From contig JAACJQ010000274.1 of the NCBI GenBank assembly GCA_016879935.1, positions 1 through 46,964 of the forward strand: a stretch of 46,964 nucleotides of DNA, given 5' to 3'. Source of the DNA: Archangiaceae bacterium. GTDB taxonomy: Bacteria; Myxococcota; Myxococcia; Myxococcales; Myxococcaceae. The notes below the pieces were generated by a model. That model was not told the origin of the DNA. It was given only the letters and a program-made list of their open reading frames with translations, and searched no databases. Both the position numbers and the translations under genes were made by a program. Numbering within the stretch: the stretch's first letter is position 1; the number at the start of each line of letters is the position of its first letter. Positions 31,200 through 35,535 of the stretch are shown here, piece after piece.

Positions 31200-31946
31200 A
31201 TGCTGAACCTGGTGTACGCCCTCGCGGCCGGAATCGTCATCACCGTCGTCATCAAGCTGGCTGGCTTCTCGCTCATCGCGGGAATCATCCCCGGCACCAT
31301 CGTCATGCTCGGCGCCTACGTCGTCCTCGCGCGCCGCACCTTCGTGAAGGTGCAGGCCGTGATGGAGAGCGTGAAGAAGGAGTTCGAGTCGATGCCGGCC
31401 AACGAGAAGGAGCGCAAGGTCAAGGCCGACAAGGTGATCAAGATGCTCGAGGCGGCGCTCCCGCTCGGCAAGGAGCAGTTCCTCATCGAGAGTGAGCTGC
31501 ACGCGCAGATCGGCATGATTCACCACCTCTTCAAGAACACCGAGGCGGCCATGGCCTCGTTCTCGAAGACGACGCCGCGCAGCTACCTCGCGCGCGCCAT
31601 GCAGGCCGCCATCTACTTCCAGCGCAAGGACTACCAGGCCATGCGCTCCGCCTTCGAAGAGGCCGTCAAACACGGCAAGAAGGACGGCATGGTGTGGGCG
31701 GCGTACGCGTGGTGCCTGCAGCAGAACAAAGACGTCGACGGCGCGCTGAAGGTGCTCGCGAGGAGCGTGGCCGAGAACCCGAGCGACGACAAACTCAAGA
31801 GCGCCCTCACCGCCCTGCAGAACGACAAGAAGCTCAAGATGAAGGCGTGGGAGCCGGGCTGGTGGCAGTTCGGCCTCGAGGCTCCGCCGATGCAGCAGCC
31901 CCAGTTCATGGGTGGCGGCCGGCGCGGCCGGTTCATGCGCCGCTGA
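31200..31946 (+). CDS. Membrane-anchored TPR-like protein, unknown function
   Basis: A 248-residue protein. Two hydrophobic segments (about 3-22 and 24-44) form an N-terminal membrane hairpin. A basic helical part follows, then TPR-like helices (about 100-210: ELHAQIGMIHHLFKNTEAAM, WAAYAWCLQQNKDVDGALKV) and a Gly/Arg-rich tail (GGGRRGRFMRR). I recognise no named family. The TPR part would face the cytoplasm if both termini do. It lies 66 nt before the ECF sigma gene in the same direction, but the gap and different content do not show that they form one operon. Confidence 0.8.
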   Translation: MLNLVYALAAGIVITVVIKLAGFSLIAGIIPGTIVMLGAYVVLARRTFVKVQAVMESVKKEFESMPANEKERKVKADKVIKMLEAALPLGKEQFLIESELHAQIGMIHHLFKNTEAAMASFSKTTPRSYLARAMQAAIYFQRKDYQAMRSAFEEAVKHGKKDGMVWAAYAWCLQQNKDVDGALKVLARSVAENPSDDKLKSALTALQNDKKLKMKAWEPGWWQFGLEAPPMQQPQFMGGGRRGRFMRR

Positions 31947-32012
31947 AGCAGTCGCTCTTGCAGCTGGCGATGTCTCACGCGGAAGCCCTCGCGTGTCGAA
32001 CGACCGGCAGGG

Positions 32013-32531
32013 ATGGTTCACGTGGCGGGGGACGCCGGCTTTTCGCGCGCAGAGCTCGACCAGCTCTACCGCCGTCATGCTCCGAGCGTCTTCCGGCGGG
32101 CCAGACGTCTGCTCGGGCGCGACGCCGACGCCTGGGACGCGGTGCAGGAGGTCTTTCAGAAGATGGTCACGGCCCATCAGAGCTTTCGCGGTGAAGCGCG
32201 GCCGATGACCTGGCTGTACCGCATCACCACGAACATCAGCCTCAACATGCTGCGCTCGCGGAGCCTGCGCGAACCGGCTGGTCTCACCGTGATCGACGGC
32301 CACGCCGATGATGGGCAGGAAGCGCTCGAGACGCGCAACCTGCTCCAGGCGTGGCTGAAAGGTCTGACGGAGCGCGAGCAGGAGATCGCCACGCTGCTCT
32401 TCATCGACGGCCTCACCCAGGAAGAGGTCGCCGACGTCCTGGAACTCTCGCGCAAGACCATCAACCGCGAGGTGGCCGAGCTGCGCGCGAAGGCTGCGGC
32501 GTTGGGCGCGTTGCCAGAAGGTGATTCGTGA
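32013..32531 (+). CDS. ECF-type RNA polymerase sigma factor
   Basis: A 172-residue sigma-70-family ECF factor with region 2 (about 18-85, including DAVQEVFQKMV and TWLYRITTN) and region 4 (about 115-160, including LTEREQEIATLLFIDG and the recognition helix LSRKTINREVAEL). ECF factors direct transcription of envelope or stress genes when released from an anti-sigma factor. ATG 32013 follows AGGG closely. Its TGA overlaps the GTG of the next gene, which has a zinc-binding motif and one membrane helix, so the pair is a sigma/anti-sigma unit. The operon probably regulates itself, but I found no repeated promoter motif I would defend. Confidence 0.92.
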   Translation: MVHVAGDAGFSRAELDQLYRRHAPSVFRRARRLLGRDADAWDAVQEVFQKMVTAHQSFRGEARPMTWLYRITTNISLNMLRSRSLREPAGLTVIDGHADDGQEALETRNLLQAWLKGLTEREQEIATLLFIDGLTQEEVADVLELSRKTINREVAELRAKAAALGALPEGDS

Positions 32532-33214
32532 GCCCGCACCTGTCGGCGCTGGTGATCGACGAGTTGGCGGCAGGGCTCCCGTCTGCTGACGCGGCGGCGC
32601 ACCTCGCCACGTGCACCGAGTGCCAGCAGCGGCTCGCCGCCGTGAAACAGGCCTCTGCGACCATCTCGGCGATGCCCGCATTTCAGCAGCGGCTCGACGC
32701 GGTGACGCTCGGGGAGCCGGCGCGACGAGGCCCCTGGCTCCGGCTGGTCTCCATCGCCCTCCCCGTCGCGGCGGCGCTCGCGCTCGTCGTGTTCTGGCCG
32801 CGGGGCGATGACGTGCTGCTGAAGGGCGCTCCGACCGTCGAGCTGATCGCGAATGAGAAGCCAGTCATGGTCGCGAAGCCAGGTGATCGCGTCACCCTCG
32901 CCGTGGGCGGCGCCGGAGCGACGCATGCCATCGTGTTCGGCGTCGACGCATCGGGCACCGTGACCAAGCTGTGGCCTGCGGGAGGCGAAGCTGCTCCCAT
33001 CGCGCCAGGTGCGCGGGTGTCACTCGACGTCAGCTTCGAGGTGACGCCGGGCGATCTCGTCCTCCTCGGTTTCTTCACGAAGACCACACAGCCCACCGAG
33101 CCGATTCGGGAAGCCATCGAGCGGAGCGTCGCCGGAGCGAGGGCCCCACTCGAGGTCCTCGCGCCGTCGGGCTTCGGAGCGGTGGCACGCAGTCGCCTGA
33201 AGGTGACTCCGTGA
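32528..33214 (+). CDS. Probable anti-sigma factor with zinc-finger motif and one membrane helix
   Basis: A 228-residue protein. The N-terminal cytoplasmic part has HLATCTECQQRL near 26-37, the H-x3-C-x2-C core of zinc-associated anti-sigma (ZAS) domains. One membrane helix spans about 72-90. The C-terminal 135 residues would lie in the periplasm and are beta-rich, probably the sensor. The domain order and GTGA overlap with the sigma gene support an anti-sigma role. It also overlaps the next gene by 4 nt, which ties the periplasmic sensor to the caspase-like product. The ZAS helices are short, so assignment rests on motif plus context. Confidence 0.8.
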   Translation: MSPHLSALVIDELAAGLPSADAAAHLATCTECQQRLAAVKQASATISAMPAFQQRLDAVTLGEPARRGPWLRLVSIALPVAAALALVVFWPRGDDVLLKGAPTVELIANEKPVMVAKPGDRVTLAVGGAGATHAIVFGVDASGTVTKLWPAGGEAAPIAPGARVSLDVSFEVTPGDLVLLGFFTKTTQPTEPIREAIERSVAGARAPLEVLAPSGFGAVARSRLKVTP

Positions 33215-34731
33215 ACTGGTGGTTCGCGCTCGTGCTGATCGTCGCGAGCACCTCGAACGCCGGTCCCGTTCGCCGGTGGGCCCTCGTCGCGGGAGAGAAC
33301 CGCGGCATCGGTGGCGACGAGACGCTCCGCTATGCCGAGAGCGACGCCCAGCGAATGCGTGACGCGCTCGTCGAGGTCGGAGGGGTGGCGCCTGGCGACG
33401 TCGTGCTGCTGAAGGGCGTTCGGGCCGACTCGTTGCGGGAGGCGCTGACTGCGTTGAAGGCACGGCTCGCGAAAGAAGCCACACCAACCGATCGCCTCAC
33501 CCTCTACCTCTCGGGCCACGCGGGTGACGGTGTGCTGCACCTCGACGACTCCGAGCTGCCGCTCGCGGAGCTGGTCGACTTCGTGAAGCAGGCGCCGGTC
33601 GAGGTCGGCGTGCTGATCGTCGACGCGTGTCGTTCGGGCTCGATGACCCGGCTCAAGGGGCTCAAACCGATCAGCGCCGCCCCCGTGAAGGTCGAGGCCT
33701 CCGGGCTGCAGGGCCGCGTGCTGATCTCGGCCTCGGGCGCCGACGAGTACGCGCAGGAGTCAGATGCGCTCAAGGGCAGCACCTTCACCCATCACTTCGT
33801 CACCGGCCTGCGCGGCGCGGCCGACACCTCGCGCGATGGGCGCGTCACGCTCGACGAGGTCTACGCCTGGGCCTGGTCGCGAACGATCGAGTCGACCTTC
33901 GGCTCTCGTGGTGGTGTGCAGCGGCCGTCGTTCAAGGTCGATCTGTCGGGCAACGGGCCGCTCGTGCTCTCCGAGCCCGGCGTGGTCGGTGGCCGCCTGG
34001 TGATCGGCGTCGACGCGCCCGGGCGCTGGCTCGTCGTGAATGCCGACACGCAGACCATCTTCGCCGAGCTCGACAAGCCTGCGGGTCCACTGACGCTCGC
34101 GGTGCCTCCGGGCGGCTACCGACTGCAGCTCAAGGCCGACTCGAGCGTGCTCGAACGCGAGGTGACGGTGCCCACCACGGGAGACGTCGTGGTGAGCGGC
34201 GGAGATCTCGAGCGGGCGTCTCTCAAGACGATCGCGCTCAAGGGCGCTCCGGCTTCGAGCGTGACGATCTCGGCAGGAGCCACGGTCGCCTCAGGCATCG
34301 TCAACGGTGTCTCGATTCAGCCAGGCGCCGAGCTGCGCTTTCGCGCCAACAACGACTTCGCGTGGATGCTCGACGAGCTGACGCTGGCACTCCTCGCGCG
34401 TGATGGCCGAAGCGTCGCGTCGGGTTTTCGGCAGACCGAGTTCGAGCTGCGCTTCGGCGTCGCGCATCGCTTCTTCATCTCGCGGCTGTCGTTGTCGCTG
34501 GGCCTCGAGCTGGGACCGATTCTGGCGTTGCAGAACGATCTGCCTGATCGCGCCGCGCGAACGAGTCTGGGACTCACTGGCGATGTGCAGCTCGAAGGTC
34601 GCTTGCCGATCATTCGGCCGGTCGAGCTCTACGTGCTGCTCACCGGCGGCGGTGCGGTGGTGAAGAAGAGCGCAGGTGTCGTCCCCGTTCCCCGAGTCGC
34701 TGGCTCTGCCGGTGTCGCGCTGACGTTCTGA
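33211..34731 (+). CDS. Exported caspase-like (peptidase C14) protein with barrel-like C-terminus
   Basis: A 506-residue protein starting at GTG 33211, which overlaps the anti-sigma stop. A short signal sequence (about 1-17) precedes a caspase-fold domain (20-245) with the catalytic pair H103 (YLSGHAGDG) and C140 (VDACRSGS). A beta-rich middle (250-375) follows. The last 130 residues (FELRFGVAHRFFISRLSLSLGLELG onward in short strands) alternate like an outer-membrane barrel and end in VALTF. Bacterial caspase homologues cleave after basic or acidic residues in signalling and death pathways, but most are cytoplasmic. An exported one encoded with a sigma/anti-sigma pair suggests proteolysis that controls sigma release. 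The membrane-barrel call is inferred from pattern only. Confidence 0.85.
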   Translation: MNWWFALVLIVASTSNAGPVRRWALVAGENRGIGGDETLRYAESDAQRMRDALVEVGGVAPGDVVLLKGVRADSLREALTALKARLAKEATPTDRLTLYLSGHAGDGVLHLDDSELPLAELVDFVKQAPVEVGVLIVDACRSGSMTRLKGLKPISAAPVKVEASGLQGRVLISASGADEYAQESDALKGSTFTHHFVTGLRGAADTSRDGRVTLDEVYAWAWSRTIESTFGSRGGVQRPSFKVDLSGNGPLVLSEPGVVGGRLVIGVDAPGRWLVVNADTQTIFAELDKPAGPLTLAVPPGGYRLQLKADSSVLEREVTVPTTGDVVVSGGDLERASLKTIALKGAPASSVTISAGATVASGIVNGVSIQPGAELRFRANNDFAWMLDELTLALLARDGRSVASGFRQTEFELRFGVAHRFFISRLSLSLGLELGPILALQNDLPDRAARTSLGLTGDVQLEGRLPIIRPVELYVLLTGGGAVVKKSAGVVPVPRVAGSAGVALTF

Positions 34732-34740
34732 GGAGCCGAG

Positions 34741-35535
34741 ATGAAACGCGCGACCGCCCTTCTCGTCCTCGCCACCGCCCTCGCCTGCTTCGACCCGCTC
34801 TACGAGGACGGCATGGCGAGCGGGTACTTCGTGTGTTGCCAGAACGGCAGCGTCGGAACCTGCGCGTGTCAGCCGGGGACCTCGTGTCTGCCAGCGTTCA
34901 AACCATGCGCTGGTGGAAGGTGCACCTCAACCCTTTCGTGCAACGGCGCAACGGGAGGCGGGTCGAGCGGAACTGGCGGCGGTTCGTCGGCGGACGGCGG
35001 ATACAGCACGGGCGGCGGCTCCTCGGCAGCGGGCGGATTTGCGGGTGGAGGATTCGTCGCAGCAGGTGGCACCTCAGCGGGCGGCGGACTCAGCACGGGC
35101 GGCGGTTCGTCGGCGGCAGGCGGAGCGGCTGGTGGTGGGTTCGTGGCAGCTGGCGGCACTTCTGCTGGCGGTGGGTTCGTCACCTCTGACGCAGGGACGG
35201 CAGGCGGGTCTGCAGCAGGTGGTTCTGCAGCAGGTGGTTCTGCAGCAGGTGGTTCTGCAGCAGGTGGTTCTCCCGGCGGCGGTTCTCCAGGCGGTGGCTC
35301 CGCGGCCGGTGGTTCTGCAGGCGGAGGTTCTCCAGGCGGTGGCTCCGCGGCCGGTGGTTCTGCAGGCGGCGGTTCTGCAGGCGGCGGCGTCGTCGAGCCC
35401 GAGTACGAGCTGTGTTGCCTCAACGGTGTGGTCACGACCTGCGTTTGCGCTCCCAGCGGCTGCGCCAACGCCCCCTTCACCGCCTGTGCATCGAACCGAT
35501 GCGTGGCCGGCACGACGACGGGCATCTGCCGCTGA
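34741..35535 (+). CDS. Lipoprotein with two Cys modules joined by a Gly/Ser/Ala repeat linker
   Basis: A 264-residue predicted lipoprotein (TALAC, Cys16). Two related Cys modules, YFVCCQNGSVGTCAC...C...CAGGRC near 29-61 and YELCCLNGVVTTCVC...C...CASNRC near 222-254, flank a low-complexity linker of about 150 Gly, Ser and Ala residues. No family recognised; it looks like an extended surface spacer with two small disulfide heads. ATG 34741 follows the caspase stop by 9 nt with GGAG in between, so it belongs to the sigma operon. The linker is coded by tandem DNA repeats that may change in number. Confidence 0.85.
   Translation: MKRATALLVLATALACFDPLYEDGMASGYFVCCQNGSVGTCACQPGTSCLPAFKPCAGGRCTSTLSCNGATGGGSSGTGGGSSADGGYSTGGGSSAAGGFAGGGFVAAGGTSAGGGLSTGGGSSAAGGAAGGGFVAAGGTSAGGGFVTSDAGTAGGSAAGGSAAGGSAAGGSAAGGSPGGGSPGGGSAAGGSAGGGSPGGGSAAGGSAGGGSAGGGVVEPEYELCCLNGVVTTCVCAPSGCANAPFTACASNRCVAGTTTGICR
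35209..35268 (+). repeat. Four perfect 15-bp tandem repeats in a lipoprotein linker
   Basis: The unit TCTGCAGCAGGTGGT is repeated four times without a mismatch and codes for Ser-Ala-Ala-Gly-Gly. Slippage would keep the frame, so linker length could vary between strains. Confidence 0.92.
35281..35370 (+). repeat. Two near-perfect 45-bp tandem repeats in the same linker
   Basis: Positions 35281-35325 and 35326-35370 differ only in the last base. They code for 15-residue Gly/Ser/Ala units in frame, next to the 15-bp array. Confidence 0.9.

Follow-up and report, generated by a model that had tools for sequence, protein, structure and literature searches.

Caspases are proteases best known from animal cell death, and the site-1 protease of E. 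coli RseA is a trypsin-like PDZ protease. A caspase-like protease has been tied to the release of a sigma factor in type III-E CRISPR systems, where Csx29 (TPR-CHAT) cuts Csx30, the inhibitor of the ECF factor CASP-sigma (PMC10028731). In the ECF54 group, genes for CHAT, subtilase and carboxypeptidase proteins neighbour the sigma gene and proteolytic control has been proposed, the group being described as without an anti-sigma factor (PMC8999054). The part of an account of EACC2-caspase neighbourhoods that is used here describes a caspase, an ECF sigma factor and a TPR gene occurring together, with the EACC2-caspase as the constant part (PMC8195603). No earlier description of a module made up of sigma factor, anti-sigma factor and exported caspase was found in the open-access literature. 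Here such a module was followed from one myxobacterial locus to its relatives.

The four-gene locus, its recurrence and its putative promoter

The window, by which we mean the whole 46,964-nucleotide stretch that was analysed (contig JAACJQ010000274.1 of an Archangiaceae bacterium), comes from a genome of 9.5 Mb in 445 contigs. An earlier note, made from the letters alone, had described four genes joined by 4-nt, 4-nt and 9-nt junctions, and the ORF calls agreed: on the forward strand, an ECF sigma factor gene (32013..32531, 172 aa) overlaps a membrane anti-sigma factor gene (32528..33214, 228 aa, GTG start) by 4 nt, the latter overlaps an exported caspase gene (33211..34731, 506 aa, GTG start) by 4 nt, and a gap of 9 nt leads to the gene of a two-headed Cys lipoprotein (34741..35535, 264 aa). 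The ECF identity of the first product was borne out by Pfam; it contains only regions 2 and 4 (Sigma70_r2, PF04542, E = 6e-16; r4, PF04545, E = 7e-9; TIGR02937, E = 4e-30). The anti-sigma factor and the lipoprotein had no Pfam family above cut-off. The former, which had been read as a ZAS-type membrane protein, has an HxxxCxxC motif (HLATCTEC) in its N-terminal domain and one transmembrane helix (residues 70–89 in the model), and continues into an Ig-like periplasmic domain. PADLOC gave no defence-system match for the anti-sigma factor, the caspase or the lipoprotein; its matches to the sigma factor look like HTH cross-matches and were set aside. Upstream, a TPR protein with an N-terminal membrane stretch is encoded at 31200–31946 of the window; its gene stops 66 nt before the sigma gene, and the gap between them holds the promoter-like motif described below.

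To place this locus among its relatives, the surroundings of ~170 loci were gene-called, and sigma, anti-sigma and caspase genes were marked by profiles built from the window genes. The count was restricted to unique caspases that bear the dyad and have 2 kb or more of sequence upstream (154, nearly all from Myxococcota); an anti-sigma gene lay upstream on the same strand in 129 loci and a sigma gene in 131, the junctions of the trio being mostly −4 nt overlaps. Matches to the window caspase were obtained in 37 of the 40 genomes searched (window's genome counted), and the best-matching named records were Myxococcales; the window's genome itself held 11 C14 matches, 13 matches to the window caspase and ~10 trio sets. 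The objection that the gene order might not be conserved therefore fails for the trio, the lipoprotein gene being confined to the window's ortholog group. Since the trio recurs across the order and the fourth gene across the ortholog group, we conclude that three-gene sets of this kind form an expanded family and are more than chance or a single-locus curiosity. A sigma/anti-sigma-like pair also lies near a caspase on a Candidatus Aminicenantes contig (L165), and the module may reach past Myxococcota. Separately, a class of long sigma-linked caspases (~700–830 aa; L092:3930-6104, L081:4053-6164) carries an extra C-terminal part without a Pfam match.

The lipoprotein (lipoprotein motif CFDPLYEDG) has the two Cys heads on a long repeat linker that had been read from its sequence. 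Each head contains eight Cys at near-identical spacing (residues 32, 33, 41, 43, 49, 56, 61, 67 and 225, 226, 234, 236, 241, 249, 254, 263), with a GGGS/GGSA spacer between them. As this low-complexity gene escapes gene calling, it was sought by a six-frame search for the motif C[LF]DPLY. About 20 loci of the window's ortholog group, Corallococcus species included, have an orthologue next to the trio (the window, L051–L058 and, in named genomes, L131–L147 and L150, several of these loci being the same contigs met twice); a divergent copy at L148 was checked by hand, and the same search did not find the gene at the remaining loci. It lies directly downstream in the window, L131, L135 and L150, a few kb downstream in L132–L134, and divergent from the sigma gene in ten Corallococcus-type loci, L136 and L147. 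Adjoining the trio in these three arrangements, the lipoprotein is likely part of the module.

Twelve nt before the sigma start, on the forward strand at 31971..32000, lies a promoter-like motif, TGTCTCA-N15-GTGTCGAA, that is conserved in this position in orthologs; taken over the window and the orthologous loci, its consensus was TGTCYCA-N15-GTGTC. Corallococcus loci also have an inverted copy, which faces the lipoprotein gene on the divergent side. The exact motif occurred 4 times in the window's genome (reversed control, 0) and 45 times in 12 ortholog-bearing genomes (present in all 12), against 3 times in 12 genomes without an ortholog (2/12); the reversed pattern gave 0. Because the sigma promoters had served to derive the pattern, ~10 sigma sites and five lipoprotein copies are not independent, which leaves ~30 independent sites. 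When 34 motif sites were read, 7 stood before a sigma gene, ~25 before a gene for an exported, lipoprotein or membrane protein and 2 before neither, mostly 6–39 nt from the start codon. Recurrent predicted targets were DUF2330 proteins, Beta_propel lipoproteins (PF09826) and two Corallococcus families. In L051 a DUF2330 gene lies next to the sigma gene in divergent orientation, and DUF2330 targets are also found elsewhere in the window's genome. At DUF2330 and Beta_propel targets (L257, L288; L271, L272, L285) the motif was seen 26–37 nt before the start. One Corallococcus exported family behind the motif has the form MKT..GWTALTVGVFLGG..PPSAEAC (L266, L268, L269, L270, L293); the one member scanned, L266, had no Pfam match. 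The sigma factor is thus predicted to drive, besides its own operon, a small regulon made up of genes for lipoproteins and exported proteins.

Fold, export and predicted location of the caspase

The caspase matched Peptidase_C14 (PF00656, E = 7e-11, above cut-off), as did 36 of 37 relatives. Even at a threshold of E = 1, Pfam gave no CHAT family; the two folds are related, so that this comparison addresses only the family assignment. The catalytic pair had been described as intact, and it is: His103 (33517..33519, forward strand) was H in 92/92 aligned caspases and 167/168 of a larger set, and Cys140 (last codon of Asp138–Cys140, 33622..33630, forward strand) was C in 92/92 and 166/168. The exceptions in the larger set were an apparently frame-broken gene (L243) and a contig-end fragment (L218). 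Regex scans for the catalytic motifs had pointed to loss of the dyad in some members; this was overturned by the alignment.

An export signal was also proposed, and the objection that the N-terminus might not be one fails as well. The first residues, MNWWFALVLIVASTSNA, form a plain signal peptide (residues 1–17), and nearly all relatives likewise begin with a hydrophobic stretch that ends in an AxA-like sequence. The protein continues with the caspase domain (about 20–258), a small beta domain (about 261–335) and an eight-strand barrel (351–505). In an AlphaFold2 model (37 sequences, mean pLDDT 88), residues 17–258 superposed on human caspase-7 and -8 with Z about 22 (rmsd 2.3–2.8 over about 199 residues of the predicted model). 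The C-terminus, previously called barrel-like, was modelled as eight long antiparallel strands, from 351–361 to 489–505, ending in a C-terminal Phe; a fold search with this model matched NspA, OmpX, OmpW and OmpA (E = 2e-6 to 3e-4). On this model, the eight-strand barrel is predicted to anchor the caspase in the outer membrane. Because an even number of strands puts both barrel ends on the periplasmic side, the caspase domain would face the periplasm too.

A clade of eight exported caspases (L012/L219–L226, support 0.999), one of them in the window's genome (L012:12851-14600), makes a natural comparison group. These caspases have no adjacent sigma or anti-sigma gene, they do not carry the R-x-K-G motif described below, and the members examined have short tails and no barrel.

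A basic motif common to caspase and anti-sigma factor

In most loci, R-x-K-G is found both in a caspase loop 7–10 residues after Cys140 and in the linker of the anti-sigma factor. In the window caspase it reads R147-L148-K149-G150 (33649..33660, forward strand), a predicted self-cleavage site in the inter-subunit loop (position 149 is K in 153 and R in 4 of 168). Residues 149–164, which start inside the motif, are disordered in the model (pLDDT <50). Animal caspase-1 and -3 are activated by a cut in the loop that corresponds to this one, about 12 residues beyond the Cys; K149 stands nine residues after Cys140.

In the anti-sigma factor the motif is juxtamembrane (LLKG in the window copy, which has L rather than R at P3), and the predicted cleavage site is K99|G100 (32822..32827, forward strand). 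The model (pLDDT 89) shows the transmembrane helix at 70–89, a disordered linker at 90–98 and K-G at the start of the Ig-like domain. K99 and G100 were the only invariant columns among 34 aligned anti-sigma factors. In a wider set of 139 members, with motifs counted over 136, K/R-G was the best-conserved feature (134/136, versus 106/136 for the HxxxCxxC zinc motif). In two whole genomes, anti-sigma factors of the window type were caspase-linked and had K-G or R-G, whereas caspase-free ZAS proteins were without KG; the latter differ in their periplasmic parts, which makes this a background check and not a matched control.

The Ig-like domain was harder to place. Fold searches gave only generic Ig-like matches (Z <8) and the assignment of a family by this route was dropped; matches to KIR, nanobody and sulfite oxidase folds were rejected. 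The DUF4384 profile hit the window protein below cut-off (E = 0.18) and 7 of 34 relatives at E ≤0.01 (best 2.4e-8), so the domain looks like a divergent DUF4384, at most a distant relative. In cyanobacteria DUF4384 occurs fused to orthocaspases (PMC8283722), a fusion that, by analogy, hints at a physical partnership of caspase and anti-sigma factor here.

Across 137 pairs, K/R at P1 and G at P1' were almost always present in both proteins, and R at P3 was found in 106/137 caspases and 94/137 anti-sigma factors. All four caspases with R at P1 (L020, L210, L211, L216) were paired with R anti-sigma factors and none with a K anti-sigma factor (pairing table 131/2/0/4). These four form one clade (support 1.0); the replacement of K by R in both partners counts as a single evolutionary event, of which a Fisher p of 1e-6 gives too strong an impression. 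Covariation at P3 was weak once kinship was counted and is suggestive only: among 13 independent phylogenetic contrasts, 6 were concordant, 1 was discordant and 6 showed no change. Since ~10 paralogous sets carry a nearly identical motif, specificity must have another source.

The predicted basic cleavage sites have a precedent; orthocaspases and metacaspases are reported to cut after Arg or Lys (PMC6426788, PMC8283722). An Asp two residues before the catalytic Cys, by which the acidic S1 pocket of orthocaspases is recognised, is present as D138 in 91/92 aligned caspases, so that such a pocket is predicted here.

A proposed switch, its alternatives and known systems

We favour, with some room for doubt, an envelope-to-nucleoid switch in which the caspase would be the gate and would act on the anti-sigma factor encoded beside it as site-1 protease. 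The ECF sigma factor would be held at the inner membrane by the single-pass anti-sigma factor, while the periplasmic caspase zymogen from the same operon would be tethered to its eight-stranded outer-membrane barrel. Once triggered, the caspase would cut itself after Lys149 (RLK|G) in the inter-subunit loop, like animal caspases, and would also cut its partner, the anti-sigma factor, at Lys99 (R-x-K|G), ~10 residues outside the membrane. This would be the site-1 cut. Site-2 and cytoplasmic proteases would go on to free the sigma factor; genes of the site-2 protease family Peptidase_M50 are present in the genome and their products could make the second cut. The freed sigma factor would transcribe its own operon and the regulon of lipoproteins and exported proteins, two-headed lipoprotein included.

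Support for the site-1 role comes from the conservation and expansion of the trio, from the conserved His-Cys dyad, from the invariance of K99 and G100 among the 34 aligned anti-sigma factors, from R-x-K-G in both partners and its paired K-to-R change in one clade, and from the absence of the motif in the eight-caspase clade without adjacent sigma and anti-sigma genes. It comes also from the caspase-free ZAS proteins without KG, from the precedent for basic P1 residues together with D138, from the promoter motif, and from the Csx29/Csx30 precedent. The suggestion that an envelope caspase takes part in anti-sigma proteolysis thus gained strong, if indirect, support. The accompanying idea, that such a caspase would follow a logic different from that of site-1 and site-2 proteases, did not hold up in the same way: the caspase is most likely itself a site-1 protease within regulated proteolysis, in a genome that has Peptidase_M50 genes.

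The caspase might instead be an output of the sigma factor, an envelope effector for self-lysis, predation or the processing of surface lipoproteins, with ordinary site-1 proteases cutting the anti-sigma factor. Its gene does lie in a putatively sigma-controlled operon behind the promoter motif, and the lipoproteins and exported proteins of the predicted regulon are possible substrates. However, such an effector has no need of one caspase per anti-sigma factor in ~10 paralogous sets per genome, of R-x-K-G in both partners or of the paired K-to-R change, and we consider it unlikely. The common motif and the K/R change in both proteins are evidence of recognition that would fit equally a docking or pseudo-substrate site in the anti-sigma factor, at the edge of its Ig-like domain, where the caspase would be kept in an inactive state at the membrane, or where bound caspase would block sigma release, with no cleavage. 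Pure binding would not need a catalytic dyad, yet the dyad is retained in essentially all members, which makes a docking site a distinctly unlikely account. The KG motifs might, finally, be unrelated structural turns and the gene linkage mere co-regulation; Gly is common in turns, and some caspases without a nearby anti-sigma factor retain KG. Both motifs border segments with pLDDT <50, and neither the loss of the motif in the sigma-free clade nor the K-to-R change in both partners would be expected of such turns, so this explanation appears highly improbable.

Cleavage of the anti-sigma factor by its own caspase, the reading we prefer, meets a difficulty of geometry: the protease would be at the outer membrane and the site is ~10 residues from the inner membrane, a distance that the small linker domain may not reach. 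From this difficulty we infer sequestration, in which inserted caspase would be kept away and uninserted or released caspase would cut, and which, where the earlier note had raised a cell-surface sensor for damage or contact, instead points to the outer-membrane barrel as a component of the switch. The trigger is more speculative; the barrel would hold the protease at the outer membrane, and failed or disturbed insertion would let the caspase reach the anti-sigma factor. Extended to the family, there would be myxobacterial outer-membrane caspases, one per sigma factor, that report envelope assembly: a barrel that failed to insert would set off cleavage at R-x-K|G, the sigma factor would be released and surface lipoproteins would be remodelled. 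We put this forward tentatively, as a possible but doubtful extension. If true, it would give caspases a non-death signalling role in the bacterial envelope, ~10 times per genome.

The findings bear on the roles of bacterial caspases beyond defence and cell death and on how the many ECF sigma factors of myxobacteria are switched on, and they also yield a promoter motif and a candidate regulon. If the proposed cut is made, caspases join the site-1 proteases of envelope signalling. Compared with orthocaspases, the window protein has in common the caspase fold, the HC dyad and a predicted basic P1, and the DUF4384 fused to the protease there would be found in divergent form in the anti-sigma factor here; searches of the orthocaspase papers turned up no barrel-anchored, sigma-linked type (PMC8283722, PMC6426788). 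The EACC2-caspase neighbourhoods differ in that neither export nor an anti-sigma factor is mentioned in the part of the account cited (PMC8195603). Like the ECF54 group, the locus pairs an ECF sigma gene with a caspase-superfamily neighbour, but here an anti-sigma factor is present and conserved. The closest precedent is Csx29/Csx30, in which the genes of a caspase-like protease, an ECF sigma factor and the inhibitor of that factor likewise stand together; there, cutting of the inhibitor relieves the sigma factor. In contrast to that cytoplasmic, RNA-guided CHAT system, the locus described here has an exported, barrel-tethered C14 caspase and a membrane anti-sigma factor, and no CRISPR. With RseA-DegS-RseP it has in common an ECF sigma factor, here putatively held by a single-pass anti-sigma factor, and a predicted periplasmic cut by the membrane followed by a site-2 cut; the difference is that the site-1 protease here would be a caspase, with one copy for each sigma factor and an outer-membrane barrel of its own.
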